From NCBI RefSeq assembly GCF_027580225.2, contig NC_073354.2, forward strand, positions 12,621,501 through 12,685,500: a stretch of 64,000 nt of DNA. The letters are read 5' to 3'. Position numbers and translations under genes: made by a program. Numbering within the stretch: the first letter of the stretch is position 1; each line of letters opens with the position of its first letter. This DNA comes from Misgurnus anguillicaudatus. Taxonomy: Eukaryota; Chordata; Actinopteri; Cypriniformes; Cobitidae. The notes under the pieces were generated by a model, which worked only from the letters and a program-made list of their open reading frames with translations, searched no databases and was not told where the DNA came from. Positions 1 to 64,000 of this stretch are shown here, piece after piece.

Positions 1-560
1 CATTAGATGTTTCCTGCAGGTAAAAAGACATGTGACCGCCAATGGCCAGCTTTGACCAACTAAACCATGCAAAACCAGCTACCATCAGAAGGTGATTTTA
101 TGTTGACTCAGCAGTGTTTGTTTAAAAGGCTTTTAGACTAAGTGGTTTCATTTATATATGTGTTTATGGCTGTGATAGCTGTTTCAATAATGTGTGAAAA
201 GCTTTCTTCTTCAGAGTGAAAAGTTAGAGAAAGTGTGAAAATTGCACCCATGCATGTGGCCCGAGTAGACCTTCACACATCTCTCTCTCTCTTTTTTTTG
301 CTGGTGCATTTCAGTGGAGAGTTTGTGTTGTGTGCATCAGTGTGTTTGTATTTCCCTTTCAATACTTGACAGATCTGGTGAAAGAAATAAGTGAGATAAA
401 AAATAAAAAATGTGCAATTTGAGCTTAAGAACTTTATTTTCTGGTACAGTTGACATCAAGTTAGTTTATGGTTACTTGATGCTGAGTTAATGTAAACTTA
501 GTAAGCGGTCTTCTACCATTCAACCAAGTAGAACTTATGACTAAAATAACTGCATATATG
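1..560. other. AT-rich non-coding sequence
   Basis: No coding signal or recognisable element. It contains a short CT/T tract near 281-299 and otherwise looks like unique intergenic or intronic fish DNA. Confidence 0.5.
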
Positions 561-563
561 ACC

Positions 564-925
564 GTGCATAGACATTCTGCATAGACATTCTTTAAGTGCA
601 TAGACATTCTTTAAAGCAACACTATGTAGTTTTTTTACCTTTAAATAATGTCTCTAAAATTATTTCAGTGATAGAACAACTTTTAACTGGACAAATTGTA
701 CTGTTGCTGCAACCCGAGCAACCTCCTAGCTGCTACAAGCACACTCTGAAAGTGGCAGTGGAGGGTAGAGCACACAGCCCCGCCCCTCCCCCTGCCTGCA
801 GAAGAATGTCTGATACCAGGGACTGCTGCGCTTTTCAACCACATGGGGGTGCTGTAAGTCATTTTTACATGGAAACTACATAGTGTTGCTTTAAATGGAC
901 GTTAAGTGCATAGACATTCTTTAAA
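564..925. repeat. Short direct repeats of a GCATAGACATTCT motif
   Basis: The motif GCATAGACATTCT occurs near 565-578, 579-591, 598-610 and 908-920. The third copy is split from its TTTAAATGGAC continuation by a MITE, while the fourth is uninterrupted and serves as a local copy of the empty target site. Confidence 0.8.
610..895. mobile_element. MITE with AGCAACACTATGTAG terminal repeats, TTTAAA flanks
   Basis: Terminal inverted repeats of about 18 bp lie at 615-632 and 873-890 (AGCAACACTATGTAG and its complement). TTTAAA flanks both ends. Comparison with the uninterrupted neighbour copy near 918-930 shows that TA, TTAA or TTTAAA was duplicated; the palindrome makes the exact length ambiguous. 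TTAA would fit a piggyBac-type mechanism. The interior has no transposase, and the frame through it is a chance one. Confidence 0.8.
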
Positions 926-1487
926 TGGACTTTGAAGACAGAGGTAAGAGGGGAGTGGAAGACGAGAGAGGGTTAACCAGGGACATTATAACTTAATTTG
1001 GTGTTCCAGTGTTGTGTTGATAGCTGTTTGTTTGCTGAGTACATGTTTTCAGTCAGGTTGTCATGGCTATGATTGCCTTTCTGCTGTGTGTACCTGTTTA
1101 TTATGCTGAAAGCTTAATGTGATTTAGCCAAGTAGGACATGTTTCTTGATCAACATCCTTTGCAACAACATTTCTATCAGATTTTAAATTTAGCATGTTG
1201 CTCTGTTCTGGCTAGCTTCTAAATGGTGAATAAGATGTCAATGTTAAATGTATTGTTAAGGATTAGCAATTTAAGGTTAAAGGTTTAAGAATATAAGAGT
1301 TGATCTTAAAGTTAGGATTTAGCCTTGCAAGTGAGGGGGAGATAGATGCTAGAAAATATGTTTTTTTTTACAGGATCCAGTCAATAATGCTATAGGCTTT
1401 ATTTATTCTTTGCCACCCCCACTGTCTACACTGCTGGGTTGTTTTATTCATGCTTTGGTAAAATATGGAAAAACACAAATTTTGATT
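896..1487. other. AT-rich non-coding sequence
   Basis: No gene or element recognised. A poly-T run lies near 1361-1370. Confidence 0.4.
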
Positions 1488-2402
1488 TAAAGGCCACATA
1501 TTGAGCCCATTTTTACAAGATGTAATTTAAGTCTCAGGTGTGCCTAGAATGTGCTTTCTATGAAGCTTTGTGTTAACAGTGCGCAATATGTTCATGTTTT
1601 ACGTATAAAAAAACATATTATTTTTCACACAATTTACTTGTCTGTAGCCTATATCGCTGCTTTCACTGTCATAAAAACGGGCTGATGTCTTTCTTGTTCT
1701 ATGAAGTCCCTCATTCAGAAATATGTATCGAGTTCTGATTGTGTAGTTTGTTTAGTGTGTTGTGATTCGATAGCAGCTTAGCTTGTCGTTCGCTTAGCTG
1801 GCGACTGACATATTCCTGTGGGCGAAGTTTAGTCAAAAAACTGTTCTACTAACGTCATTAAAGCAGGAAGTAGAGGGCTGTAGTCTGAACAGGCCGTTCA
1901 CTGTAGGCTTTGAAAGGCGAATTCTGTTTAAGAAAATATATCGCCTGGCAGTGAACTTTGAGCTTTATCATTTTACAGGTATTATTTATGTTATTACAGC
2001 AACATTACACACTAACTAGGGTTTAATAAATGGGATCAGGAAGAATGTGACCTGCACATGGTGCAAAAGTGCACCCTTAGCGCTTTTGGTTAAAAATAGA
2101 TATGATTCCTGTGAATACAGTCTCAGACAGACACATTAGCACTACACTTTGCTAACAAACACATTTACTGTGAAAAAGGGTCAAATTAGGGGTAAAATTA
2201 ACCAGTCAGTCAGTGGCTGTGGGCGTGGCTGTATCAGTGTGACATCACATTAACAAGAGAAAATCAAAAGAGCATGTCTTAGTTGGTTTAGTTGGGATTT
2301 AAAAAGGAGAGGTTTTTTTTATTGTAGGTTTGATGTGTTTACACTGCCAACACATTTATGTCCAAACATCTTGTAAAAGTGGATTTTGCATAATATGTGC
2401 CC
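1488..2402. mobile_element. Non-autonomous DNA element with imperfect terminal repeats
   Basis: The left end (AGGCCACATATTGAGC, then TTTTTACAAGATGT) is matched in reverse complement on the right by ACATCTTGTAAAAGTGG near 2366 and TAATATGTGCCCTGT near 2391-2405. The motif set resembles the abundant cyprinid family with ends of the type 'aggg(g)ac.tatt...tttacaag'. No transposase is seen. Confidence 0.5.
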
Positions 2403-2454
2403 TGTGTGTATGACCGAACCATGGTTTGAAACAACCCAGCGTGTATGTTAATTT

Positions 2455-3181
2455 TAGGGATGCACCGAATCGAGGATTCGGATTCGGCCGAATAGCCTAC
2501 TGGGCTTTTTGACGGGGTTCGGGTTCGGCCGAATCCTAGATTTTTTTTCCACCGAACCGAACCCTAGGCTTGCGGTACGCTGTTTGACGTCACACGGCCG
2601 TTGATTACACACATCGGGTGCTGATGTGGAGATGAGCTTTTTCTTTTGGTGAGCCTTAGTGGCTGGACACACCAAAACTTTTAAACACGGCTGAAAATGC
2701 CTTGAGGACGCCAAATGCCAGCGGTTTTTCAGCCGAGCGCTTGGTAGCTGTGATGCTTCAGCTGTGAGCCGGTTGGTTGCTGTGGTAATGTCCCGCCCCT
2801 CCTCCACTGTAATTGGACGGCCGTGTGAAAACTGACATTGACGAGCGGAGCTTCTCACTCAAAGTTAAATATAGTTTTCAGCGCGGAGCTGCTTGCTTAT
2901 TGGAAAAACGAACGTGTTGCAACGCATCGCTTTCATTATGCATATGCTTATGGTAATTGTCAAAATAGTTTTTCCAACTTGTCATCCTGGCATAATGTAC
3001 AGTTAAAATTAAATAAAATGAAAAATACACTGCTGTGGACGTTGTTTACTTCATTAATGTGTTTTACTGTGTTAATGGAATAAGGATGCGAGTAGGATTC
3101 GGTTTCGGATTCGGCCGAATCTTAAACGGTGGATTCGGGATTCGGCCGAACCTAAAAAAATCTGGATTCGGTGCATCCCTA
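2455..3181. mobile_element. Non-autonomous hAT element, 8-bp TSD
   Basis: Terminal inverted repeats TAGGGATGCACCGAATC and GATTCGGTGCATCCCTA are perfect over at least 17 bp. The flanks GTTAATTT (2447-2454) and ATTAATTT (3182-3189) match at 7 of 8 positions, as expected for an hAT target-site duplication. Subterminal regions repeat GATTCGGCCGAA-like blocks in both orientations, probably transposase-binding sites. The 727-bp interior lacks an hAT transposase. Confidence 0.9.
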
Positions 3182-3293
3182 ATTAATTTAAACCCAACAG
3201 TGTGCTTGTCCATACGGTTATAAAAAAATTTAACCATGTTTTTTTTTTATTATAGTACAAATGTAGTAACTATGGTTTATTGACATACTCTGT

Positions 3294-3436
3294 AAAAAGT
3301 TACTTCAATTGGTAAAATCTAAAAATGTAAAGTTCATTGAACTTACATTTTTCACCTAAAGTAAAACTAAAGTGAAAATTTAAGTTAAATAAACTTACAT
3401 TTTTAGGTGTTACCAACTGAAGTAACTTTTTAAGTT
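3294..3436. repeat. Small foldback repeat
   Basis: AAAAAGTTACTTCAATTGGTAA at the left pairs with TTACCAACTGAAGTAACTTTTT at the right (partial matches), and ACTTACATTTTT-type blocks repeat between them. This is a compact palindromic MITE. Confidence 0.6.
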
Positions 3437-3510
3437 GATCCAACTTTGCATGACTTTTCATGTATTTTTTTACTATGGTTACTGTAACAAAATTATGTGG
3501 TGTTTAACTG

Positions 3511-3725
3511 TAGGAATGCACCAATATATCAGCCTATAATTGGTATCAGCAGGTAAGGGTTTTTCCCACTATTGAACATCGGAATTGAGTCACAATGACA
3601 ACAGATTTGAAGTTTGTACTCTCTACATTTTTAGGATTTCACAAATTAACACTTTGAAACAAGGAGTTAAAAACAAAACTGTTGGTATCTATTGGTATCG
3701 GTATATGCCACAATGAAACTAAAAT
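3511..3725. mobile_element. Degraded hAT fragment
   Basis: TAGGAATGCACCAATATATC at 3513-3532, followed by TTGGTATCAGCAGG and later TATTGGTATCGGTATATG, resembles the fish hAT end TAGGGATGCACCGATATATC. No matching right terminus is visible, so it is a partial, diverged copy. Confidence 0.5.
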
Positions 3726-4500
3726 TTTTTATTTTCTTTTTTTGTGTAATTGAATAAAGATCTTCTCCAGCAAACACTAGATACCTCATTTGTTTAGCTC
3801 ATAAATGTGTACTCCCTTAAGCAAACAGACCCAAACCCCTGTAGAAAAAAATTATGCATTCCAGCAGGTATTGCCTTCAGCTTGTGCCTCGGGTAATGTC
3901 CCGTGCACTGTGTTATTATGAGGACCCAGCTGCCCTAAATGAAGCAGCTATTTTACTCTCAGGTTTATAATACTGTGTATGTGTGTGACCTTACCTAGGC
4001 TCACAGTATAAAAGGTCACTTTCCTGTCACAGTGCATCAGAGGTGTTTAATTCAGGCCTCATCCCCGAGGCTGGGCTGTCTGGACCAGCCTACCTCCGAG
4101 TCCGACTGTCCCGTCAGCTGTATTCAGCCGTCTTTAGAGCGACTCCTGTGAATTTGCTGTGGTTAAGATCTGCAGTCTCCTGCGGGCGCTGCAACTCACC
4201 TGCTGCACTTATAGGTCATCTAAAATAAACTTTTCAGGGAGGTGATAGAGAGACAGCAATGAGGAAAGCAAGGCCTTTTCCTAAATCATTAGCTAAACTA
4301 ATATCGCACAAGCAGTACTGAATAACATATTATGTTGAAGAACTGTCAACAGCAGGCCAGCACAAACATAACGACAGCTTTAAAAAAAATCACTCTGTAA
4401 CAGCGTGACAGGATCACCCTATTTGTGTAATCAATGTATGGAATATATGGCAGAATAGATTGTTGGCATTTGGATTTGGATTCATGATTTAACACTTCAA
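3726..4500 (+). other. Unique sequence with a TATA-like motif
   Basis: Mostly unremarkable AT-rich DNA. TATAAAAG at about 4008-4015 is followed some 30 bp later by a locally GC-richer stretch (4043-4228), open for 61 codons, with no homology I recognise. A core promoter with a first exon is possible but unproven. Confidence 0.25.
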
Positions 4501-4502
4501 TG

Positions 4503-4579
4503 CACACGCATGTATGCATGTAAACATGCACACACGCACGCACAGCGCACACACGCACACACGCACACACGCACACACG

Positions 4580-4640
<61 letters not shown>
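4503..4640. repeat. (CA)n microsatellite
   Basis: Interrupted CACACG/CACGCA repeats pass into a pure (CA)n run at about 4583-4640. Frames through it on both strands encode only His-Thr or Cys-Val runs and are not genes. Confidence 0.95.
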
Positions 4641-4849
4641 TCTGGTTTCCATGTTTTGGGACATTCCATAGTCGTTATGCATTTTATACTGGACAAACTG
4701 TATATTCTATTCCCAAACCCTAACCCCAACCATCACAGAAATTTTTCTTGTACCTTAGATTTTCAATAAACATCATTCTGTTTGATTTATAAGCTTATTT
4801 CCTCATGGGGACCTCAAAATGTCCCTACGAGGTCACAAATTTACCAGGT

Positions 4850-4852
<3 letters not shown>

Positions 4853-4888
<36 letters not shown>
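4853..4888. repeat. (CA)n microsatellite
   Basis: A pure AC-dinucleotide run of about 36 bp. Confidence 0.95.
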
Positions 4889-4889
<1 letters not shown>

Positions 4890-5510
4890 TTGTTGTCATG
4901 CATTACCTATAATTGAAAATATTTTAAATCTAAAATGTGAATGAGTCACTAATGGAAGGAAGTGCAAGAAAAGTGGATCTTGGCAATTCTTGTGGAAATT
5001 CCATATAAAAGGCGAGTTGTTTTTGTGGCTTTTTAACGATGGTAACACACATACAGATACATCTGAATTCACACCCACAACTGTAAACACACTCAAAAAA
5101 TATACATATATGGATTCAGTAGTAATAATGTAACTCCTACAGCCCCTTTCTTACAAAAAACTCTAATTACAAGGACCCAAACATCCTTTCTTCCATGCCA
5201 TAGCTCATATGGGCCCAAAAGCGAGCAGGCCCACACTGACATTTTATTCCTGGCACCATGAACTTTTGTCCTGCCTTAAGGAAATGTTGTGATCCAACAA
5301 GTCATTTTTCTTTACAAAGAAAAAAGGATGATTAAAATCAAAAGCATTCCACTTCTGTTTGATATATGGAACGACAAGTATATCACATTTGGTTTAAGAT
5401 ATAGACATTTGGTATATAAATGAAATATTCATGCTGTTAAGTTTAAATGAGAGAATATAAGATTCTGTCACAATGAGGCTCGTTAAGTGTGTTAAAATTT
5501 GTGAGCTTTT

Positions 5511-22902: not shown

Positions 22903-23179
22903 CAGTGGTTCTTAAACTGGGGGCCGGGGCACCCAGGGGGGCCGCGAGATGGTGCCGGGGGCCCCAGTTTTATAAAATACATTAATTTATCATGAATTCT
23001 CTGTAATTAAACCTAACGAAATTAGGCTACTAACCGCTACTTTGTATATTTTAATGTTTTGTTTAATTAAAATGTTAAGTTTTAGCATTGTTTTTGTCAT
23101 AACTTTTCTTTGGGGGGGCCGCCAAGGAATGCACCGCACACAAGGGGGGCCGCACGTTGAAAAAGTTTGAGAACCACTG
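22903..23179. mobile_element. Short hAT MITE with 8-bp TSD ATATAGTG
   Basis: The terminal repeats CAGTGGTTCTTAAACTGG and AAGTTTGAGAACCACTG are near-perfect. ATATAGTG is duplicated at 22895-22902 and 23180-23187. GGGGGCC blocks near each end are typical of this family (CAGTGGTTCTCAAACTG). The element is 277 bp long and non-coding. Confidence 0.93.
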
Positions 23180-24976: not shown

Positions 24977-26668
24977 CGCTGCATCTGAAACCGCCTAGTT
25001 CCATATTATATAGTAGGTGAAAAGCAGTAGGCAAGGTGAGAAGTATTCATAGTATTGCAAAAACAGTAGGCGAAAAGTACCCGGATGACCTACTACTTCT
25101 GGCAAGATACCGAAGTGTTCATTCGATGAACACTTTACTATCCCAGGAGCCCTCATGAAAGGAGTTATCCAATAAAGAAGAAGAGGGAGAGGAGTTGTTT
25201 TATTTAAAAATGTCCAAAAGTGGTATATTAAACAGCTGTCCCATTCTGTCTCATTCCAGTTAATGACTAACTTGTTGTTATGACGAAGTCTTTAGTGTAA
25301 ATCTCTTTTCTTGGACTACAACAAACACACAGATTGTAGGCAACAGTTTACTTCCTGGGATTGGTGATGTCGAGAAGACCAACATTATCATAATTCCTCA
25401 TGCTTCGGACTTACAGCCTGTAAGTTAAAGGATTAGTCTATTTTCTTAAAAAAAAAAAATCCAGATAATTTACTCACTACCATGTCATCCAAAATGTTGA
25501 TGTCTTTCTTTGTTCAGTCGAGAAGAAATTATGTTTTTTTAGGAAAACATTTCAGGATTTTTCTCATTTTAATGGACTTTAATGGACCCCAACACTTAAC
25601 AGTTTTAATGCAGTTTAAAATTGCAGTTTCAAATGACTCTAAAAGATCTCAATTGAGGCATAAGGGTCTTATCTAGCAAAACGATTGTCATTTTTGGCAA
25701 GAAAAATAAAAAATATGCACTTTTAAACCACAACTTCTCGTCTTCTTTCAGTCCTGTGATGCACCAGTGTGACCTCACGTAATACGTCATCACGTCAAGA
25801 GGTCACGGATGACCTATCGAAACTACGCCCCAGTGTTTATACGTGTGGAGAAAGAGGACCGTTTCGACGTTGTTGTATGTCGATTGATACTAATTAATGT
25901 CTTTGTGTCAGTTTATTGTTTAAAATGGTCCACAAATGTGCGTTTCATATATGTAACATGTGACCTTTCAACGGCATAACGCAACTACATGAGGTCGCGC
26001 TGGCTCACCACACAGCCGGAGGAAGAAGAGAAGCCGTGGTTTAAAAGTGCATATTTTTAAAAAATGACAATCGTTTCACTAGATAAGACCCTTATGCCTC
26101 GTTTGAGATCGTTTAGAGTCCTTTGAAACTGAAATTTTAAACTGCATTAAAACTGTTAAGTGTTGGGGTCCATTAAAGTCCATTAAATAAGAAAAATCCT
26201 GGAATGTTTACCTCAAAAAACATAATTTTTTCTTGACTGAACAAAGAAAGACATCAACAGTTTGGATGACATGGTGGTGAATAAATTATCTAGATTTTTT
26301 ATTTAAATGGAGTAATCCTTTAACTCCTGTCAGCATTGCATTGTGAGCGACTCTTTCAAACATGGTAAGGAGCGTCACATTTCCAGCTGACATCAGAGGT
26401 ATTCAGGCCAATCACAACATACAGATTAGCTAGCCAATCAGGGACACAGCGCTTTTCAGTTCAATGAGCTGTACAAAATCAGAGCGTTTGAGGAAAGCAG
26501 TATATCTAGAGCTACAAAAATGTACAGTATGTGAAAAGTAATGTGTTCTTTTAACCATAAACCACGCAAACACATTGTATTATACTAAATACACGAAAGG
26601 TAAGCAATGAAATAGGTGCACTTTAATTCAGTTCCTATTGTCACAGTATGCGATTTCAGACGCTATGG
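24977..26668 (-). mobile_element. Diverged copy of the GCTGCGTCCGAAACCGC family, interrupted
   Basis: CGCTGCATCTGAAACCGCC near 24977, then ATATAGTAGGTGAAAAGCAG, corresponds in reverse orientation to the right end of the element at 40132-40978. GTATGCGATTTCAGACGC near 26647-26664 is the other end. A TTAA-flanked element (25429-26319) lies inside it. Confidence 0.65.
25429..26319. mobile_element. Palindromic MITE (AGGATTAGTCTATTTTC family), TTAA flanks
   Basis: AGGATTAGTC and GAGTAATCCT-type ends are flanked by TTAA at 25425-25428 and 26320-26323. Long inverted arms share AATGTTGATGTCTTTCTTTG / CAAAGAAAGACATCAACA, CTTTAATGGACCCCAACACT and GCATAAGGGTCTTATCTAG. The centre holds GACGTCATCACGTCAAGAGG-type sequence. 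A second copy spans 60595-62435 with two insertions. Confidence 0.85.
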
Positions 26669-30361: not shown

Positions 30362-30770
30362 TATACACTCACCTAAAGGATTATTAGGAACACCTGTTTG
30401 ATTTCTCATTAATGCAATTATCTAATCAACCAATCACATGGCAGTTGTTTTAATGAATTTAGGGGTGTGGTCCTGTGACATGTGGGTGAAAATGCCTTGT
30501 TGATGCTAGAGGAGAATGAGACGACTGATTCAAGCTGATAGAAGAGCAACTTTGACTGAAATAACCACTCGTTACAACCGAGGTATGCAGCAAAGCATTT
30601 GTGAAGCCACAACACGCACAACCTTGAGACGGATGGGCTACAACAGCAAAAGACCCCACCGGGTACCACTCATTTCCTCTACAAATAGAAAAAAAAGGCT
30701 ACAATTTCATGAGCTCACCAAAATTGGGCAGTTGAAGACTGGAAAAATGTTGCCTGGTCTGATGAGTAAT
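30362..30770 (+). mobile_element. 5' part of a Tc1/mariner element
   Basis: ATACACTCACCTAAAGGATT, then ATTAGGAACACC, is the recognisable terminal repeat of a fish Tc1-type family. It is followed by leader sequence and the transposase start. The element ends abruptly at about 30770 without a right terminal repeat. Confidence 0.85.
30516..30770 (+). pseudogene. Tc1-type transposase, truncated and frameshifted
   Basis: The frame opens MRRLIQADRRATLTEITTRY and continues through a basic stretch (KRPHRVP, then NRKKRLQF). This corresponds to the helix-turn-helix region and linker of Tc1-family transposases, which bind the terminal repeats. A frameshift between about 30705 and 30722 moves the coding into another frame, where 30722-30766 reads NWAVEDWKNVAWSDE. 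That segment leads into the first catalytic aspartate of the DDE domain (codon 30761-30763). The sequence stops there, so about two thirds of the usual ~340-residue enzyme is missing. It cannot be active. I infer that the copy was cut by a deletion, since unrelated AT-rich sequence follows. Confidence 0.85.
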
Positions 30771-31692
30771 CAATAAATGTTTGTTTTTTTACTTATTTTT
30801 GCATTCTGCTGAGAAATTATATTGTAGATAATTAATATTTGTTTTGTTATGTCTAAAGTTTTGAAACCAGTTTCCTTAGAATGTACCAAACACAAACGCT
30901 GTGAAATCAGCCTATATTTTCTTTTATTTTACAAAAGGAGAAGCATCAAACATGTGTACTTAAATCGTTTAATATTAATTTATGACAGATGTCGTTTAAT
31001 CTACATCAGTTCCCAGGCTATCCCTGTACAAAAACAAACACTCATACACATGCTTTCATTTGTCGAATGACCATTAGTAGTGCTGGTAGGCTTTACTACT
31101 GGCTACAGGATGACTAATAGAGGTCTATAAAGTCATATCTCTCTTTCACTTTCTTTTTCTATACCTTTGTGCTTTCTCTTTCTCCGCCCCTCTCTCTTCC
31201 CTTCGCACTTGTTCCTTGCTTCTCCCTCCATCCCTTAAGGCTTATAGATTATGTTCTAACGTGCCACTAAAATACTCATTACTCATCTGCCATAAGGATG
31301 GATTAACACTTTGGCGTGAGGCAGTTTTATGTATGGTTGTATGGGGACACAGTGGTTTCACTATGAGCAGATCTGCTTGACTGCTGTGCTGTTTCCAGGC
31401 TGCTCATCATTAGCAATGTAATATGACTGATGTTGCTTCACTCTTCACTGTTTACTTTTGCTTCAAAAGCCTTCATGGTTGTTTTGGTACCAGCGGGAAT
31501 TGAAATGAGCGACTTATTGTAAAATGTAACTAATTACTGTTACGTACATTTGTCTTTATTTTGGATAATTATGCATTATGGTTTTTTAAAGTGAAAGTGA
31601 CAAGTATGGTCACTTTAACCTCATTTAACCTCTACTAATATAACCAATATAATTAGTAAACATATGCACTATACTGTAAGTTGTAAACAGTG
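30771..31692. other. Unique sequence
   Basis: No gene or element recognised. A pyrimidine-rich stretch lies at about 31137-31230. Confidence 0.4.
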
Positions 31693-36546: not shown

Positions 36547-36778
36547 TAAGGCGGAGTGCACGATTTCTGAAAAACGCTTTGGAAAAGGAAGTCGGGCCGA
36601 CTACCTAAACACACTTGTAGCCAGTCAGCAGTAAGGTGCGTGTCTACTAAACAACATTGTTGCCTGGGTTGCGGGTCTATCAAAAGAAGGTGCAGATTCT
36701 ATTGGAGCAGGAGCGTGTTTGTTTAGGTGATTTCAATTGTCAACATTGACTTTCAGAGATCATGGACCCTGCCTTTAA
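36547..36778. mobile_element. MITE with TTAAGGCGGAGT(C)CACGAT ends (copy 1)
   Basis: CCTTAAGGCGGAGTGCACGA on the left and ATCATGGACCCTGCCTTTAA on the right form terminal repeats. A better preserved copy lies at 61003-61226, sharing GGGCCGACTAC and GGCGTGTTTGTTTAGGTGAT-like segments. Confidence 0.8.
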
Positions 36779-38754
36779 GTTACTCAGTCTACAAATTAAA
36801 ATATTAATATTCAGACAAATAAAATATGACTTCTTATAATTATATTTCATTTATAGCTCAGACAACTCATAATTGCCTGTGGTATGGGGAGCAGTACCCC
36901 CCTGCCCCCCATACTCCTCCTAACTTTGCGTTCATACCAGACGCCAAGGAAACGAATAAATCATGCTATTCGCACGTAGTTAAACATTTTGAGTTAACTC
37001 GCTTCATTCGTGCATGAAATTTGCGAAATTTGCAATTGGAGATTTGAGAGCTAGGGCATTTTAGGCGGTTTCTCGGATAAGGTTTAGATTAATCCAGGAC
37101 TAGGCCTTAGTTTTATAAGAACATTTAATTAGTTTGTACAAAAATACATCTGAAAACTACTGATGTACATATTGAGACAAAACAATGGTACTGATATACT
37201 TTAAAATATGTCAATGCAAGCTTTTTTTATTAAGACTGAAAAAAAAATTATTCATTCAATTTACTAAATTTTTTAAGGTGAGTGGTTGGAATCAATTTAT
37301 TTAAGTTACATTTAAACAAAAGTTTTTTGTTTTGTTTTGTATTCCTATTTTTTTTGTTTTATTGTTTAAAGGGACACTTCACCCATTTGCATTAAGCTTT
37401 GTATAATTAGAACCCCAGTCATGTTTTTGAATGGTCGTGCATCATTACCTCTGTTTCCCCGGAGAAATATGGATTTCAGTGTTGCACTTCCTTCTTTCAA
37501 TGATGTAAAAATCATCATTTTGCATCATTGACAACGTGATCTCATGAGAATACGTGTGTACTTTTACGTATCAGTGTGGTTGTACAATACGTACATATAC
37601 TTACGATTAAAACACACTAAAACGTACAATATCAACGTTTTGACAGGACTAATACGTAAATTATTTACGTATTTACAGCTTTACAAACGTACAAATTTGT
37701 ACGCAAGTTATTCCTATTTATAAATATTAAAATCGCGGGCATTGGCGTTTCTTACTCATAACAATGACATGTTTTCAGTCATATTTTCTGACTTATTTAT
37801 TTAAGACGGTTTACCCATTTACCTAATGAAATGATTATGATATTCAGAGAATTTCACAATATTTAACATTTTAAAACTAAAATTAATAGCATTTCTGTAT
37901 TAATATTTATTTTGTTTGCCATGACACACAAAAACGCGTTTTCTCCTCCTGTCTTCTATGCATACGTTATTATTACTACAAAGCAATAATTACAACAAAA
38001 TACAACATAAATTCACAAAAGATGTTACTTTTATTCATTTGCTGTAATCCACATCTTTAAAATTCATACGATTGCGAGGAACAGATCCAAATTCAGCCCT
38101 TTATCCAGCGATTTTGAGTTCTCATCAGCAACCGTAGTCAAATCGCGCGTTCGTTAATGTGAATTCAAATATCCCGCCTCAAGAAGCTTTACGACACATT
38201 GCTTTATGGCAGTGATATCAAAAGCTCATTGGCTGTTTGAGTGCCACATGACATATTTGCGTCATTTCCATTTCCGTTGGTGTACGTTTGAAATTAAAAA
38301 AGCGCGCCGTGACAGAGGGAGGCCAGATCAACGCTGATCAAACTCTTGGATTAATAACTTTAATACTTCTCTTTACTTTACTTCATATACTCCAGAGAGG
38401 ACCTTGGCTGCAGCACATCATCATTTTAACTACTTTTGGTACTGATTTTAATATTCGCAATAAATAAGTTGTTGTGATTACACTTGTCTGTCTGTTATGA
38501 TTTTTTAAACAGTAACGTTAAATGATTTTAATAAACTGTCTTGCGTAGGACTGTAGCACCTTAAATTATCTTTGAATGCTATATTGTTACTAATATGTTC
38601 CTAAACATATCTGTTCGTTACGTTGCATAATTCTAAAAAAATACATTACGTATTTAAACATTTTGTATAAAAAGAGTTTGGGTTTAGGGCAGGGCTGGAC
38701 TGGACTGGAACAAAAATTTGCCCCTGGCATTTTGGCCCAAACCGGCCCACACTA

Positions 38755-39203
38755 CATTGCAAAAATGTATTTTCAAGAAAAAAAAATCTTAGTATTTTTG
38801 TCTTGTTTTCAGTAAAAATATCTAAAAAATCCTAAATTAAGATGCTTTTTCTTGATGAAAATTACCCAAGAAAATAAGTCTAGTTTTAAGACCAAAAATA
38901 TTAAATTTAAGTGATTTTGTGCATAAAACAAGCAAAAAAATCTGCCAATGAGGTAAGCAAAAAATCTTGAACATTTTCTTAAACACTAAATGCAAAGCTT
39001 ACCCCATTGGCAGATTTTTTTGCTTGTTTTATGCACAAAATCACTTAAATTTAAATTTTTTGGTGTAAAAACTAGACTTATTTTCTTGGGTCATTTTGCT
39101 TATTAAGAAAAACCATCTTATTTTAAGAATTTTTAGATATTTTTTACTGAAAACAAGACAAAAATACTAAGATTTTTTTTCTTGAAAATCATTTTTTGCA
39201 GTG
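38755..39203. mobile_element. Complete palindromic element inside layer 4, TA target
   Basis: The ends CATTGCAAAAATG and CATTTTTTGCAGTG are flanked by TA at 38753-38754 and 39204-39205. The two arms of about 200 bp are inverted copies (AGTCTAGTTTT / AAAACTAGACTTATTTTCTT, AATCTGCCAATG / CATTGGCAGATT). A TA target suggests a Tc1/mariner-type or similar integrase. A half copy lies at 9690-10365. Confidence 0.88.
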
Positions 39204-39354
39204 TATAATTACAAACACCACCCTTTTTGCAAGCCTTTAAATATGTAGCAATAGCAACTCCAATTCCATAAAAGCACTAAACCCAATTAATAGCAGAAAA
39301 GAGTGAGAGTTGACACAACAAACACTTCTAGAACATGTTATTTATTAGTTTAGT

Positions 39355-39453
39355 TTAGTTTAGTTTAGTTTAGTTTAGTTTAGTTTAGTTTAGTTTAGTT
39401 TAGTTTAGTTTAGTTTAGTTTAGTTTAGTTTAGTTTAGTTTAGTTTAGTTTAG
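39355..39453. repeat. (TTTAG)n microsatellite
   Basis: About 20 units of TTTAG/AGTTT lie inside nest layer 4, with almost no interruptions. Confidence 0.97.
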
Positions 39454-40131
39454 TAATCCACACTTATGAATCCTAAAACAAGCTATTGGCAAAATTTGCC
39501 ATTGAATTGCTGACTTTTTACAAAATACAAGTCCTGCTTACAGCAATATTGAAAACGGATTATTACTTGCAGTACTTACTGTACAGGAAGTATTCCTACA
39601 TTCACTGAACTAAACTTGTGTGATTACAGTAATAGAGATTTTTAAGATTATCGGTCAAATGTGTTGTTATATACAAAAAACATATCTTTTTCTGTAAGCA
39701 GATCTCCTGGATTGTTTGATTTTGCTTGAAGAGAAATTATACGTTTTGAAACAGACAATCAACGAAAAATCTACGAATCAGATACAATCTCGTAGTCACA
39801 GAGCAAAGAGTGCAATTATTTTATTGCAGCTTTATCACCAAAATTGTGTGTTTTTGACTCAGTTTTATCAAGGGGTATCTATCTAAACTTGTGTTTTGAA
39901 AGCAGTTCTGCTTACCGCAGCCAGCCACTAACGTTACACTCACTTATCTCTCGTCTCTCTCCCTCTCCTCACTGACACACTTTGCGTGCTGGTGCTGCGC
40001 TGCCAGTGCCACCGCCGCCACCATCATCATCATCATCACCAGCGACGCGAGTTGAAGGTCCTGCTGTGTTATTTTACCACATTTTGCAGCGTCTACTGAA
40101 GAGCCTGTTTCTCCTTGCGTGTTATCTCTCT

Positions 40132-40978
40132 GGCTGCGTCCGAAACCGCATACTGTATAGTAGGTACTGAATTAGATGAAGTACCTACTTACTTGGCGTT
40201 AAAACAGTAGGTACTGTATAGTATGAATCCTGGTAGTATGAATGAGATTCGGACGTACTACATCCGCCATGTTGTTACATCACGTGACATACGTCGTCAT
40301 CACGTCCTGTCATTTCAGCGCGAAAACAGCCGCGTGCCTCTTCTTCTTCGTTGGATAACTCCTCGTCCGGGGCATCATGGGATAGTGAAGCGTCCATCGT
40401 ATGCACACTGCAAAATCTAACCGGAAGTAGTAGGTCATCCGGGTACTTTTTGCATACTGTTTTTCGAATACTATGGCTGCGTCCGAAACCGCATACTGTA
40501 TAGTAGGTACTGAATTAGATGAAGTACCTACTTACTTGGCGTTAAAACAGTAGGTACTGTATAGTATGAATCCTGGTAGTATGAATGAGATTCGGACGTA
40601 CTACATCCGCCATGTTGCTACATCACGTGACATACATCGTCATCACGTCATGTCATTTCAGCGCGAAAACAGCCGCGTGCCTCTTCTTCTTCGTTGGATA
40701 ACTCCTCGTCCGGGGCATCATGGGATAGTGAAGCGTCCATCGTATGCACACTGCAAAATCTAACCGGAAGTAGTAGGTCATCCGGGTACTTTTCGCATAC
40801 TGTTTTTCGAATACTATGTATTCGGACATACTACTCGCCTCGCCTACTGCTTTTTGCGTACTATATAGTATGTAGTAGGCGGTTTCGGACGCAGCATATG
40901 TATTCGGACATACTACTCGCCTCGCCTACTGCTTTTCGCGTACTATATAGTATGTAGTAGGCGGTTTCGGACGCAGCA
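40132..40978. mobile_element. GGCTGCGTCCGAAACCGC element, 9-bp TSD, internally duplicated
   Basis: GGCTGCGTCCGAAACCGC and GGCGGTTTCGGACGCAGCA are terminal repeats. TATCTCTCT is duplicated at 40123-40131 and 40979-40987 (9 bp). The first 343 bp (40132-40474) are repeated at 40475-40817 with only a handful of differences, and the last ~82 bp (40818-40899) are repeated at 40900-40978. Both duplicated frames at 40223 and 40566 are shadows of the repeat. Confidence 0.9.
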
Positions 40979-41164
40979 TATCTCTCTATTTTGACACGTG
41001 ATCTGACCGACGACGCATGCTCGCTTGCACAGAGACCAAAGCGGTGATTGGGCCAGCTTAATGTCAATCAAAAATAACCAATGGGCTGCTGCTGAGTGGG
41101 CCGGTCTATCTAGCAGTGGCGGTTCTACACGGAGGCCAAGGGTGGCCCGTGCCTCTGTAGACAT

Positions 41165-42905
41165 CAGAGGTGTAAAGTACTCGAGTAAATGTACTTCGTT
41201 ACTGTACTTAAGTATTTTTTGGGCTACTTTGTACTTGTACTGAGTATCAAAAATATAGGCAACTTTTACTCTCTACTCAATTACATTTTTGATTGGGTAT
41301 TTGTACTCTTTACTCCACTACATTTGAAATGACACTTAACGTTACTCGCTACATTGTTTATTCGTCAAATAAAAACGAGACGAAAGTGTCAGAGTGTGAT
41401 GATGGATAGAATCTGTGGTCGCGAGGTTACACGCACACACACAACTGAGGGACTTCATTGGCGCTACGCGGGGCAATCGTATGAAATCAAAGTACTGCGA
41501 GAGCAAATCAAATGCATATGGAGAAGTTTTGTCTTGCGGTACTTTGATGTCAAACGCTGAACGGCTTGCATTGAGCCACCGTAGCGGGACATCTGCGTGC
41601 TGCGTATGTCATAAACTGTAGAGAAAAGTTCGCGTCTGGTCCGAGAGAAGAGACAAAGAGCAAACATGGATGCATATCACATTTGCTTCAGTCAAGGGAC
41701 CCTTTGTTAAACATGTGATGCTACAATCAAAACAAAAGTGATGCGCGATCGCAGGAGGGTCATCCCGCAACTCAAAGGCAAGCACAAATGTTTATATACT
41801 CTGACGCTACTTTATCAGCTAACCTGAGCTGGTTACATAACTTGATATAACTTACTATATAAGCCAAAATAAACCAGCGATGTCCTGTACTGATTGCCCG
41901 AGTAACTTAAGTACATTATAAGATTGATAATAAGTGTACAATTTCACTGTCCTCAAATTTAACCAAGTATGCTGTAATGTATTTACTGTAAAGAGGGATG
42001 CATGACGGAAGAAATGTAGTGCACTTAATGTGAGATAGTGGTGTTACGTCTACTACATGTGTTTACAATTAATCTTTCAAATGAACAACTTCACGTTTTT
42101 AATATGCATTATCATATTTCTGTTAGTGTAATTTTCGTTTACAGGAATTTTTTAAATATTAAAATTATATCTTTTTTAGGATAGGCCTATATAAGAATAT
42201 TTGGTAATGTTAACAAGATTTTAATAAAGTAATTGTTGAAATTAACATTAACAAAGATGAATAAATGCTGTATAAGTGCAGTTCATTATTAGTTCATGTT
42301 AACTAATGTAGCTAACTAATGTCAACTAATGAACCTTATTGTAAAGTGTTACCATATGTTTATATCACAAAGTTAGGCTATATATTTTTCAGCATGGCAC
42401 ATTCAAGTACACAATGACACTAGACTAAAATTAAATGGGTTTAAATTAAATTGAATGTAGATTTCTAGACTAAAATCTCATGGCATTTAGTTGAATAAAA
42501 CTAGACTAAAACTAAATCAATTCAGATGACAAAAATATGACTAAAACTTAATTCAGTTTTTGTCAAAAGACTATCACTATGTTTAATCTGTGTTTGTTCT
42601 GCCAGGTCAAAATTTTGAGGAGTTTGATTTCTTTTCTATATTAGAAAATAAAACCTCATAAATAAACTTTCTTAGTTTTCACTGCCCAGATCTACAATGT
42701 CTCTTTGTGTTGAGGACTAGTGCATCTTTGAGCCAACATTCAGTACGAGTAAAAATACTTGAGTACTTTTAAATTGGGTTACTTTAATACTTTTACTCAA
42801 GTCGTATTGAAATTGGTAACTTGTAACTTGTAGTGGAGTAATTTTTACAGTAAGGAATTTGTACTTTTACTCAAGTATGGCTTTCAGCTACTCTTTACAC
42901 CTCTG
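41165..42905. mobile_element. Nest layer 6: hAT with TSD GTAGACAT
   Basis: The ends CAGAGGTGTAAAGTACTCGA and CTACTCTTTACACCTCTG, and perfect GTAGACAT at 41157-41164 and 42906-42913, define it. Both sides are full of ACTTAAGTA / TACTTTTACTCAAGTA subterminal repeats. The 1741-bp interior has no continuous transposase frame. Confidence 0.94.
42205..42353. repeat. Possible further inserted repeat in layer 6
   Basis: TTAACATTAACAAAGATGAA.. to ..ACTAATGAACCTTATTGTAA, then AGTGTTACC, resembles a common fish repeat beginning GGTAACACTTTACAATAAGG. It would be an eighth layer, but the second terminus is unclear. Confidence 0.5.
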
Positions 42906-43530
42906 GTAGACATGTCCCTGGCCACCCCTGTGGCCACCCCGTGCTGACCAAATAAAAAAGTATAAATGTATTTAGATTTTACACGCGAGCGCCAAAAGCG
43001 GAACGTTCTACACCGGCAAATTAGAGCGGCGCTCCCAATCACTGTAGCCGGCTGCGGGAGATGCTCGGCGAATTTGTTCCTAATCCCCCGATATTGAGAA
43101 TGTGTATGCAGGTTTGGGCACTGGTAAGGACTCTAGCTGACTTGACATTGGGACACTGTTCACTTTTTCTCCTGTGACGTGGCTGCTTAAAAGCGCTGTA
43201 ATTATGTATGCTCTTACATATACGTGCATACAATTGGAGGAATTTAATTAAATGTTACATATAAAAATTTTTACAATTTAAAATAAATATTATTTTAAAT
43301 ACTGATTAGATTGTGGTCCCTAACTGTCTAGCAATGTGTGTTTATATGTAAACTAAAACAAACGCTTGTCTTTATAAAAGTTTGCATTTCATAAAGTTTA
43401 TTGAGTAGGCTCACATGATTATCGGTTGGGGGGCTTTAGAAAAGAGCCAAGCTCCCCTTTTGCACCTGCACTCACTCTTGTATTAAATACATATTTATAT
43501 GATTGTAAAGTAAAATAAAGTTTACAGGGC

Positions 43531-43752
43531 AGTTTCCCGGAAAGGGATTAGACTAGTCCTAGACTAAAATAAATGTAAGAGCTGTCCAAACTGAAAACAA
43601 CTTGCAATGCCATATCTTAAAATACACCAGTGCCCTTTGTTTTGCTTCAAAATGCACACAAGTAATGTATTTAGTAAGGCATGTTTGTTAAAACTAGTTA
43701 TATTTCCTAATTAAACTATAAGGCCTAGTCCTGTTTTAAACTAATTCCTGTA
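43531..43752. mobile_element. Degraded second copy of the layer-0 family
   Basis: AGTTTCCCGGAAAGGGATTA, then GACTAGTCCTAGAC, and later AGGCCTAGTCCTGTTTTAAAC are diverged counterparts of the layer-0 ends. It sits in layer 5. Confidence 0.75.
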
Positions 43753-44645
43753 ACCACCCCTATTATCTTTAAATATAATTTCTTGCAATTTTTTATGTGC
43801 CCCTCTGGTAAAACACTGGCCCCTCATTGGCCCCCCTAGTGAAATTTGTCTAGAACCGCCACTGCTATCTAGGAAAAAAAGGACGATGACTGGGCCGGGC
43901 AGTCATTGGGCCAGCTTAATGTCATTAAAAAAATAACCAATGGGCTGCTGCTTAAATGTCAGTGGGCCGGTCTGTCTAGAAAAAAAGACGCTAACTGGGC
44001 TGCTCAGCAGATGTAGCGGCCCAAAAAGTACGTCGGCCCACCGGGAAACTGCCCGGTGTGCCAGATGGCCAGTCCGCCCCTGGTTTAGGGTAAGGTTTGG
44101 GGTAGGTTAAGGTGGTAACATATCGCTAAAATGGTTCAAAAGAAATTATACAGCAATCTTTATGGAATAAAAAATACGTTAATGTTTTACGTTTATTAGC
44201 TGTCAAAACGTAATAATGCTACGTTTAAATGTTGTAAATATGTCTACATTGTACGTTTTAGCATCTTTTAAACATACAAAAAATACGTTTTTTGTTGTTT
44301 ACAGTTACGTGTAAATACTACGTATTAACAGTGAGACCAGGCTGTCATTGAAAGAAGGAAGTCCTATATCTTTGTAGAGGGGATGAGACTACAAACACTC
44401 CTTTTCTCGGTCAAATAGGCACCAAATTCTACATTTATGTTACATTTCCACTACAAATATGATCCTCTTTTTATATAGATTAATGATTCCACGGGTGAAA
44501 TGCTCCTTTAAGTGTAGCTTAAATAAATTGATTGCAACCACTTACCTTAAAAAAATTGAGTAAATTAAATGAATAATTTTTTTAAGTGCACACTTATACA
44601 TGCATTTTAGCTGGGGACTAGAGTTAAGCCCTGTCCGGGAAACCG

Positions 44646-45636
44646 CCACTTTATGTACATTCGTAATTTTTTGTCCTTTTTTGCTCTTTTTTATCTTATT
44701 TTTTCGTTCACTGCATAAAAAAGTTCCTCTTTTTATGAGCTCCTTTTTTATTTTATTTAATCGAATAAATTAGCATTTCATAGACACGTCAGAAAGTTAT
44801 AACACTTATGTATAAAAATAAATGTGTCATGACCCCACTGAATTTTATTCACACTAATATCATAAAAAAAACGTACTTGAACATCAGCTGGAATGTAAAG
44901 TCTAATCTCAATCTGCAAATAGCCTCCAACTCTCAGCCCAGCTGTTTGTCGCAGCATAGTTTGGCATGTAATTTTCTTTGCACCAAACACATCTTTATCC
45001 ATCTAAAGTTACAGCAGGCACATCTGTTCGTCTATGCATGCAAGCTCTGATAGAGCCAGTCTGGCACGCGTCCTCATATCGCTCTTATTTCCATCATCCT
45101 CCCTCTCTTGCTCTCACACACGTGCACGCAGAAGCACTGACACACATGCACTCGTGCACAGTGTGGTCATGAGGGCACCATCTAAACGCTGCCATGGTTA
45201 GCTCAATTAGCCTGCAGGGAGATAAAGATAGGGATGGAGCGGTTGAGAGAGAGAGAGTTTCCTCATCTGCCAAGTCTCCCTCGTGCGCTCGTGCAGGATC
45301 TCTGGAGTCCTCCGTGGGCTGTCTTTGTGCGCCGTCTGCCCAGCCGCATTGTTTGTAAATAAGCCGTCTGGAAAATTAGCTGGGGCAGCCGCTCACTCAC
45401 TCCCTCCCGTTTGACTTGGAGAGTGAGATATGAGAGTGAAACTTTTTCAGCACAAATTTTAACTTTTACAATTACAGGAAAGCAGTGGAATTTGGCGAAT
45501 GATCCTACATTCTATACTCTGCCAACCTACGAGAGCTCTGTTATGACAATCAGCCTGCTTGTTGTTGACAATCAACATTCGAGCGCGTGGGATTTTGTTT
45601 TCACCGATTTCATGTAAATACATTTATGCCATCAGA
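44646..45636. other. Unique sequence, candidate conserved block
   Basis: T-rich up to 44760. From about 45020 to 45400 the composition is balanced and non-repetitive (for example AGCTCAATTAGCCTGCAGGG). It could be regulatory, but nothing is proven. A short GA run lies at 45246-45258. Confidence 0.3.
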
Positions 45637-60781: not shown

Positions 60782-61813
60782 CAGGGCCGCTGGAAGTCAG
60801 TTTGAACAGAGGGGGTGCTGTGAATTTTTTTTTTACACAAAACTATGAGCCTATAGGCCGATTTAAAATACATTTTAAAAATAAATACATTGAGTTTCAC
60901 TATTGTGATACACTTCAGTGCACACACCCAGGGTCTGAAACACACAGACATCATCAGTTCTCAGATAAATATATGCGCTATATAAAGCAGAAATAGCCTA
61001 CTTTTAAAGGCGGAGTCCACGATGTTTGAAAAACGCGTTGGAAAAGGAGACGGGCCGACTACCAAAACACACTTATAGCCAATCAAATCAAATCAAATGC
61101 TGGTTTGCGTATGTGTGGGGCGGGTCTATCAACAGAAGGTCCAGATTCTATTGGGGTAGGGGCGTGTTTGTTTAGGTGATTTCAAATATCAACATTGGCT
61201 TTCAAACATCATGGACTCCGCCTTTAATAATCCCAGAGGGAATTACTTTCGTAACTTTAGATATACATACATCATATTTACATACAACATATAATATTAT
61301 AACAACATTTAATACGAATTAAACTTCACAATTTTCAATGTCCGTGCGGACGAACATATTTTACTTTCGTTTTTAAGTTAGGATCACACGTCAATTAACA
61401 GTGGTAAAATATTCTCACAGTAACATACTATTTTTTATAGATCTTTTGTTTTTACTAAAAACTGTACTATTACTGTCTGTTTTGAAACTTAAAAATAATT
61501 CATAAATAATAAAATGGGTTTAATTCTGATATTGTATACTTTTATAAAGAAATAAATGGTGTATAATTACATTTTATGAATAAATTAAGCTTTTGGTGTT
61601 TCCTTTTTGTACATTACATTAATCCCTCACTAACGGACTATCTTAAAAACTGAATAATATTCTTTTACATTTTAATCCTTTAATTATTAATATTTAAAAG
61701 CGTTTTTGTGCTGCTGCGCATCCATGTATGGAATAAGCAAACCCACGTTGTCATCCCTCTCGCCAATAGGGGGTGCTGGAGCACCTGCAGCACCCCCACT
61801 TCCCGCGGCCATG
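60782..61813. mobile_element. hAT element with TSD GTTTCAAA
   Basis: CAGGGCCGCTGGAAGTCAG on the left and CTTCCCGCGGCCATG on the right are imperfect hAT ends. GTTTCAAA is duplicated at 60774-60781 and 61814-61821. GGGGGTGCTG occurs in both subterminal regions (about 60812, and about 61769 as AGGGGGTGCTGGAGCACC). It contains a MITE at 61003-61226. Confidence 0.88.
61003..61226. mobile_element. MITE with AAAGGCGGAGTCCACGATG ends (copy 2)
   Basis: TTTTAAAGGCGGAGTCCACG and CATCATGGACTCCGCCTTTA are near-perfect ends. GGGCCGACTACC and GGGGCGTGTTTGTTTAGGTG are shared with 36547-36778. A short ATCAA tandem lies near 61083-61097. Confidence 0.9.
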
Positions 61814-62879: not shown

Positions 62880-64000
62880 GAACCCCCCCTCTAAAGGGCG
62901 ACTCCCGGAGCCCAACAAACAAAATATACAGTCCAATAGAGGGTGGGGGGGCGGGCCAGGACCTCTTGGCGAAGGCAGGGCAGTTCAGGAGAGGTCCTGG
63001 GTCATATGGCCAGGATGGTCCAAGAACATGAGGCAGATGCGGGCCTGGGTCATGGGGCAGATGCGGGCCTGGGTCATGGGGCAGATGTGGGCCTGGGTCA
63101 TGGGGCAGATGCGGGCCTGGGTCATGGGGCAGGCTAGGACCTGGGTCATGGGGCAGGCTAGGACCTGGGTCATGGGGCAGGCTAGGACCTGGGTCATGGG
63201 GCAGGCTAGGACCTGGGTCATGGGGCAGGCTAGGACCTGGGTCATGGGGCAGGCTAGGACCTGGGTCATGGGGCAGGCTAGGACCTGGGTCATGGGGCAG
63301 GCTAGGACCTGGGTCATGGGGCAGGCTAGGACCTGGGTCATGGGGCAGGCTAGGACCTGGGTCATGGGGCAGGAATAGACCTGGAACACAGGGAGAGGAA
63401 GGGTCCGAGCACACTTCGGCCTCCGCCTTGGTGTCCTCTGCCTCCTCCCTGTGTCCGGGTACTACCCCCCCCAAAAAAAAACTTGGGAAAGCTCCCAAAG
63501 CCCAGGGTGGCGATGTCCCAGGTGGTGGACCAGATGAATCAGAATAGTCAGTTGAGCCAGGTGAATCAGACAAGACAGGTGAATCAGGCAGGACAGACGA
63601 ATCATGTGAATCAGACGGGACAGGTGAATCGGGCAGGACAGACGAATCAGATGAGTCGGGCAGGACAGACGAATCAGATGAGTCGGGCAGGACAGACGGA
63701 TCAGATGAGTCGGGCAGGACAGACGAATCAGATGAGTCGGGCAGGACAGACGGATCAGATGAGTCGGGCAGGACAGACGGATCAGATGAGTCGGGCAGGA
63801 CAGACGGATCAGATGAGACGGGCAGATCAGACGAATCAGATGAGACGGGCAGATCAGATGAGACGGGCAGATCAGATGAGACGGGCAGATCAGATGAGAC
63901 GGGCAGATCAGATGAGACGGGCAGATCAGATGAGACGGGCAGATCAGATGAGACGGGCAGATCAGATGAGACGGGCAGATCAGATGAGACGGGCATATCA
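62875..64000 (-). CDS. Repeat-rich 3' reading frame of the LTR retrotransposon (partial)
   Basis: The frame is open from the right window edge to its stop at 62875-62877, just at the LTR boundary, for more than 370 codons. From the N-terminal side it consists of Pro-Val-Ser-Ser-Asp-Leu hexamers, then 9-residue Ser-Asp-x-Ser-Val-Leu-Pro-Asp units, a short unique linker with a Gly/Val/Phe-rich segment, then 8-residue Gly-Pro-Ser-Leu-Pro-His-Asp-Pro units. It ends SIGLYILFVGLRESPFRGGVL. All three arrays have periods divisible by three (18, 27, 24 bp), so the frame survives. The first Met (63994-63996) is a variant of a Leu codon in the array and is unlikely to be the true start. No Gag zinc knuckle, protease, RT or integrase motif is visible in this part. 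It may be the tail of Pol, an extra ORF or a decayed env-position ORF. Function unknown. Confidence 0.6.
   Translation of the reverse strand, partial: DMPVSSDLPVSSDLPVSSDLPVSSDLPVSSDLPVSSDLPVSSDLPVSSDLPVSSDSSDLPVSSDPSVLPDSSDPSVLPDSSDPSVLPDSSDSSVLPDSSDPSVLPDSSDSSVLPDSSDSSVLPDSPVPSDSHDSSVLPDSPVLSDSPGSTDYSDSSGPPPGTSPPWALGAFPSFFLGGVVPGHREEAEDTKAEAEVCSDPSSPCVPGLFLPHDPGPSLPHDPGPSLPHDPGPSLPHDPGPSLPHDPGPSLPHDPGPSLPHDPGPSLPHDPGPSLPHDPGPSLPHDPGPSLPHDPGPHLPHDPGPHLPHDPGPHLPHDPGPHLPHVLGPSWPYDPGPLLNCPAFAKRSWPAPPPSIGLYILFVGLRESPFRGGVL
62880..62896 (-). other. Polypurine tract of the LTR retrotransposon
   Basis: The minus strand reads TTTAGAGGGGGGGTTC just before the LTR's TGTAATGG. This is the usual primer site for plus-strand DNA synthesis in LTR retroelements. 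Confidence 0.8.
63030..63385. repeat. 24-bp minisatellite
   Basis: About 14 units of 24 bp: four of CATGGGGCAGATGCGGGCCT type, then ten of CATGGGGCAGGCTAGGACCT type, each followed by GGGT. The later units are identical, suggesting recent expansion. Confidence 0.95.
63540..63815. repeat. 27-bp minisatellite
   Basis: Units of GATGAGTCGGGCAGGACAGA followed by CGAATCA or CGGATCA, preceded by more irregular related units (GTGAATCAGGCAGGACAG). Confidence 0.9.
63810..63996. repeat. 18-bp minisatellite
   Basis: About nine to ten units of CAGATCAGATGAGACGGG reach the window edge. The last visible unit carries CATATC instead of CAGATC. Confidence 0.95.

Follow-up and report, generated by a model that had tools for sequence, protein, structure and literature searches.

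Transposons nested within one another are an already known kind of structure, and the question raised by the locus described here is how far the order of seven such layers can be read as history: whether each element arrived in its host at this site or came along inside it, and whether the order of the layers also orders the families to which they belong. The nest lies within a 64-kb window (the whole stretch of DNA that was analysed; C18:12621501-12685500) of a genome of 1.12 Gb in 61 contigs, and that same genome provided the search space for further copies of each element. Each DNA search scored the best 40 of 344 to 5094 candidates; copy numbers given below are lower bounds, and counts of empty sites cover the best 40 places. 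Among the open-access papers on nesting, chronology and self-insertion that a literature search listed, none concerned this locus.

Inverted repeats were listed, and ends and flanks were measured for every proposed element. The outermost layer (layer 1; 37064..44647) is a GGCGGTTTC..GAAACCGCC element of about 240 bp without its contents. It encloses a foldback element (layer 2; 37234..44588, the start being approximate), with arms at 37241-37316 and 44507-44583, which in turn encloses a MITE with a TTAA target site duplication (TSD) (layer 3; 37370..44507; 318 bp without contents) and, within that, an ACAxCxTGGTCTCA element with the TSD CATTG (layer 4; 37531..44345; 1414 bp without contents). 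The three innermost layers, each delimited by its ends and its TSD, are hAT-like: layer 5 (38690..44082; TSD GTTTAGGG), layer 6 (41114..43864; TSD CTATCTAG) and layer 7 (41165..42905; 1741 bp; TSD GTAGACAT). The TSDs of layers 3 to 7 are exact, at 4, 5, 8, 8 and 8 bases respectively. The seven layers, their order and the duplications CATTG, GTTTAGGG, CTATCTAG and GTAGACAT were thus all found where a preliminary description of this DNA had placed them, as was a microsatellite that it counted among the side elements, (TTAGT)22 at 39345..39454 in layer 5. The seven-layer nest is real, and both the order and the identity of its layers are confirmed. A search for a further outer layer, in which the flanks of layer 1 were compared with the 5.4 kb to the right, returned short matches only (the best of 26 bases; 92%, E 5e-5).

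The hAT-like character of the inner layers was also recovered by a blind scan of the window for CA..TG ends, an exact 8-bp TSD and at least 10/12 matching terminal bases, which returned five candidates, three of them being layers 5, 6 and 7; 100 first-order Markov sequences of equal length yielded four candidates in all at the 10/12 cut-off and none at 12/12. Elements of the hAT superfamily have short terminal inverted repeats (TIRs) that start with CAG and end with CTG. The terminal bases of layers 5 to 7 match at 12/12, 12/12 and 10/12 positions, and the 8-bp duplications expected of hAT elements are exact in all three. No hAT domain was detected by Pfam in four translations from the nest, and the four had no match of any kind above the curated cut-off, in line with non-autonomous elements; one sub-cut-off match of a nest reading frame to a ZNF451 zinc finger (E 0.0028) was taken as chance. 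Rfam likewise gave no match that reached the gathering score. When relatives were sought by sequence pattern in contig collections, one pattern had no match in a genome contig collection; in a viral contig collection, three of four patterns had none, and the fourth was found in two stretches, neither with a BLAST match to the window.

Elsewhere in the window lie a 277-bp hAT-like element (22903-23179) with the exact TSD ATATAGTG and 11/12 matching termini, and a weaker hAT-like candidate (60782-61813; TSD GTTTCAAA; 10/12 termini), a 108-base stretch of which recurs (89%) at 36671-36778, just left of the nest. The window also holds a Tc1/Tc3-type transposase fragment (30510-30773, plus strand; Pfam HTH_Tnp_Tc3_2, E 4e-14) and, at 63044-64000, minisatellites of 18, 24 and 27 bases that are open in several frames (for example as PHDPGPSL repeats on the minus strand).

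If each layer inserted into the previous one, other copies of the host should run uninterrupted across the point at which it is split here. Of the six inward steps, four gave rejoined hosts that align across the cut after in-silico excision. With layer 3 removed from layer 2, all seven other fetched layer 2 loci align across the site; with layer 5 removed from layer 4, the same holds at 40/40 of the best-scored places (90-98% identity) and at 12/12 fetched loci; with layer 6 removed from layer 5, it holds at 40/40 of the best-scored places (78-94% identity), and the rejoined site was also read in fetched loci; and with layer 7 removed from layer 6, it holds at 37 of 39 other places, the other two having no match to that part of layer 6. 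None of those 37 carries layer 7 at the window's site. The statement in the preliminary description that every split host resumes correctly on the far side stands on these counts for layers 2, 4, 5 and 6, and is likely to be right for layers 1 and 3. The same results bear on the idea that unrelated repeat copies were misjoined during assembly: the region consists entirely of repeats, which speaks for it, but misjoins do not create exact TSDs at element ends, nor would they leave hosts whose other copies read on with no base missing, and we consider an artefact of this kind barely credible.

Some features of these junctions deserve separate mention. The TTAA duplication of layer 3, seen in one copy, flanks the element on both sides (TIR 13/20) and fits piggyBac or Kolobok alike, without discriminating between them. 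On joining at this site, the layer 2 arms pair for 4 bases past TTAA, which was equalled by 11 of 635 TTAA controls, and the total of arm matches is ordinary (127 of 635 controls). Self-alignment of layer 6 around layer 7 gives a weak palindrome only (score 22). In most other layer 6 copies, the alignment is broken into two pieces at query 327-343, with tens of bases between them; the window's copy has no such gap and is apparently a member of a shorter subfamily. Layer 5 contains a tandem pair of units of about 100 bases (41041-41113 and 43899-43979), the first of them cut by layer 6; once the first is rejoined, the two units are identical at 93 of 110 positions.

For the two remaining steps, the evidence is of another kind. 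The termini of layer 1 form a TIR of 16/20, and its flanks, ATTTTA and ACTTTA, match at five of six positions, an exact TSD being absent. Rejoined layer 1 is identical to a family member at 43527-43759 at 169 of 224 aligned positions and to one copy at locus L045 at 68% across the full 240 bases; going by these diverged relatives, layer 2 likely inserted into layer 1. The two arms of layer 2 are 91% identical to each other. The foldback of the preliminary description is present, with true ends that lie outside the arms: family ends read from loci L008 and L010 are CACTGAAAA-like termini about 6 nt further out, flanked in the window by AA and CA where TA is expected, and TA does stand to the left of the L010 copy. 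Removal of layer 4 from layer 3 leaves a CATTG duplication, a 5-bp TSD read in the window copy alone, and joining restores the central palindrome of layer 3. The sole match to layer 3 across 85 fetched loci was a 65-base end piece; the duplication and the restored palindrome in the window's own copy make it likely that layer 4 inserted into layer 3.

An empty site in other copies speaks for insertion at the locus, and an occupied one speaks for a guest carried in by that host. Of four further elements within the nest, two are passengers in this sense. The first is the layer 1-family copy within layer 6 (43527..43759, minus strand), which the preliminary description had not listed: none of 39 other layer 6 places runs across this site, 36 of them show both sides with a gap between (226-254 bases in 35, 387 in one), and three of three fetched layer 6 copies hold the guest, at 298/301, 298/305 and 293/302 identical positions. 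A late local insertion was considered for this copy and rejected, since the guest is present in other layer 6 copies. The second is a palindrome in layer 5 (38755..39203) with TA on both sides; like layer 2, it was considered as a possible member of the Tc1/mariner-like elements, a group whose TSD is TA. Of 20 fetched layer 5 copies, 12 carry it at this site (in one aligned piece in 11, in two at L069), the other eight being uninformative: the right junction only was seen at L078 and L086, L079 and L084 are cut-off pieces, and L071, L072, L082 and L087 gave no match. Described earlier as a side insertion, this palindrome is indeed present and TA-flanked, but it came with layer 5. Both elements travelled with their hosts.

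The layer 1 family is therefore found both outermost and inside layer 6, and the nesting is silent on when it was last active. The claim of a strict relative order among seven or more families has to be narrowed accordingly: the local order holds for four steps, and it is not a chronology of families, given two passengers. Nesting orders events at one locus, and does so only where a guest was not carried there by its host.

The passengers also show that composite jumps occur in these very families, and it might be supposed that several of the main layers arrived inside a jumping host, in which case the depth of the nest would exceed the number of ordered local events. Such an arrival would be compatible with the evidence for layer 2 in layer 1 and for layer 4 in layer 3, and one composite jump into the locus by a rare copy of a host would leave the same pattern throughout. 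Against it, the other host copies that were scored have an empty site for layer 3 in 2, layer 5 in 4, layer 6 in 5 and layer 7 in 6. At the right end of layer 7, furthermore, the 39 other scored copies (97-100% identical) stop at the end or within 11 bases of it, and none of the 39 runs on into layer 6. We regard composite transposition of the main layers as unlikely; at four of the six steps, empty sites elsewhere support successive local insertion.

The last side element, a MITE of 422 bp, required a closer analysis of its target site. Its outer copy (40132..40978, plus strand) sits in a TC run of layer 5 and had been described as an element with a 9-bp TSD. The 9-bp flank match, TATCTCTCT, is exact as read, and a 3-bp duplication at the same place (TCT/TAT) has one mismatch. 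A search for the family gave 40 scored places (the window's own included) at 99-100% identity, of which 30 were fetched. Eleven of the 30 (L021-L023, L025-L028, L032 and L038-L040, on contigs C13, C16 and C1, eight of them on one contig) lie within a single surrounding that is 99.3-99.9% identical over about 3.4 kb. This surrounding is a long repeat that carries the MITE and was recently amplified, a further instance of the composite movement considered above, and its 11 copies were counted once, leaving 20 independent insertions. Fifteen of these have an exact 3-bp TSD (among them the window's own self-insertion, described below), none has a longer one and five have no exact TSD. Among the fetched layer 5 copies, the empty site expected after removal of 3 bp was found exactly in three of 20 (L070, L071 and L073), and that expected after removal of 9 bp in none of 20; the 9-bp match is accidental, because the TC run sits there in the 20 fetched layer 5 copies. 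The 9-bp duplication is thus withdrawn. With the outer MITE excised, the alignment is continuous, with good flanks, at 38 of the 40 best-scored layer 5 places; the two exceptions are L093, which has a long TC run, and L092, which holds a MITE copy of its own, in the opposite orientation, at the same TC run.

Three superfamilies were considered for this MITE. Mutator-like elements make TSDs of about 9 bp, and such an assignment is ruled out by the 3-bp TSDs in 15 of 20 insertions and by the TC run. PIF/Harbinger elements have a 3-bp TSD of the form TWA; the length agrees, but TAA or TTA occurs in none of the 15. Zator elements combine a 3-bp TSD with a Zator transposase, and the 422-bp MITE may be a candidate Zator: its 3-bp TSD fits, and no transposase or autonomous partner was seen. 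Read in both directions, the 15 sites give the target consensus A-N-A-C-NNN-G-T-N-T, with C next to the TSD in 26 of 30 readings and A three bases further out in 25 of 30. A diverged MITE of this family on the reverse strand of the window (24978-26663), with matching end pieces about 1.4 kb apart, is perhaps another interrupted copy.

Within the outer MITE lies a second copy (40475..40896, plus strand; TSD TAT) that the preliminary description did not list; the outer copy rejoins around it without a gap and with 5 differences in 422 bases. The inner copy occupies the middle of CGAATAC-TAT-GTATTCG, which is the MITE's sole perfect 7-3-7 palindrome (the whole window has 10) and also the one place at which the MITE fully matches its own target consensus (AC-NNN-GT occurs twice). 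The exact 24-base junction pattern, with the guest in either orientation, was found five times in the genome, as against none for a reversed control, a count that amounts to a few cases of one exact pattern at one position of the MITE. Besides the window, the sites are L044, with an older MITE-like guest and a right-hand host end that was not found, and L042, L043 and L045, where the guest is a relative about 450 bases long and the right-hand TSD copy reads TAT, ATT and TGT, respectively. All five guests share one orientation, and the end flanks differ among the loci. This relative, whose ends are GGCTGCGTCCGAAAAC, was seen at the TAT site of the MITE in L041, L042, L043 and L045; in L041/L043, the interrupted MITE is separated by 15 bases from an intact one. 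It is conceivable, although we hold the idea only tentatively, that a near-ideal internal target makes this family and its similar-ended relative nest at one nucleotide and in one orientation. If so, a built-in self-target could act as a landing pad, as a brake on copy number or as a maker of composite elements. The internal target site allows the role of target preference in self-nesting to be tested by counting.

A target preference of this kind raises the further possibility that the locus itself is a trap that draws transposons beyond chance, to which the opposite-orientation MITE at the same TC run of another layer 5 copy (L092) would also lend itself. A model of uniform insertion without loss, in which the depth of a base is Poisson distributed with mean ln(growth), already expects a few places at a depth of at least seven. 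Under inputs that are assumptions (the TE fraction, and a genome of 1.4 Gb where the actual one has 1.12 Gb), about 17 kb would lie at such depth at a TE fraction of 0.52, with 0.77 such bases expected in any given 64-kb window, and about 1.6 kb at 0.40; in a small simulation run alongside, no base exceeded depth 6. More than half of the zebrafish genome is reported to consist of TEs (PMC9341512). Under this model, depth-seven nests should be rare yet present genome-wide, and we consider a local trap quite improbable.

The account that we favour, and in which we place high confidence, is that successive local insertion, passengers and self-insertion of a MITE together built the nest. A depth-seven cluster of non-coding DNA transposons would have formed mainly by successive insertions at the locus, each younger element being placed into a resident one by transposase that we infer to have acted in trans, and leaving a TSD; absolute times for these steps could be suggested only by inference of the same kind. 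Elements that had earlier inserted into the progenitors of layers 5 and 6 would have come along with their hosts, and the MITE with the 3-bp TSD would have inserted into its own copy at an internal match to its target motif. The missing exact TSD of layer 1 counts against this account. As an interpretation of the locus, the order of the nest is partly supported: four steps hold locally, the other two likely do, and a general chronology of families fails. Before age is read from nesting, other copies of the host need to be checked for the guest, a check that two pieces here fail, and the nest may serve as a worked example, most of its layers being testable against other copies within the same genome.

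Nested transposon clusters have been read as chronology by REANNOTATE (PMC2672092), TinT (PMC3014933) and TRANScendence (PMC5657132). As described there, their nests resemble the present one in that elements lie within elements, host halves are joined and depth is taken as insertion order, whereas here a single locus of DNA transposons is concerned. The TinT model, as outlined there, assigns one activity period to each element and has no target preference (PMC3014933), assumptions that the passengers and the target motif of the MITE break. Self-insertions and multimers are described for P-element constructs in Drosophila (PMC4744444), and the MITE has similarly inserted into its own copy; unlike those constructs, it is a natural element that sits at a defined site of three nucleotides, central to a palindrome, and a related family is found at that very nucleotide. 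Finally, plant LTR retrotransposons are reported to favour particular regions of other elements when they nest, with palindromes as frequent targets (PMC6911290), a position-biased nesting at palindromic targets that is shared by the present case, in which a different class of element, a short DNA element with a 3-bp TSD, is involved.
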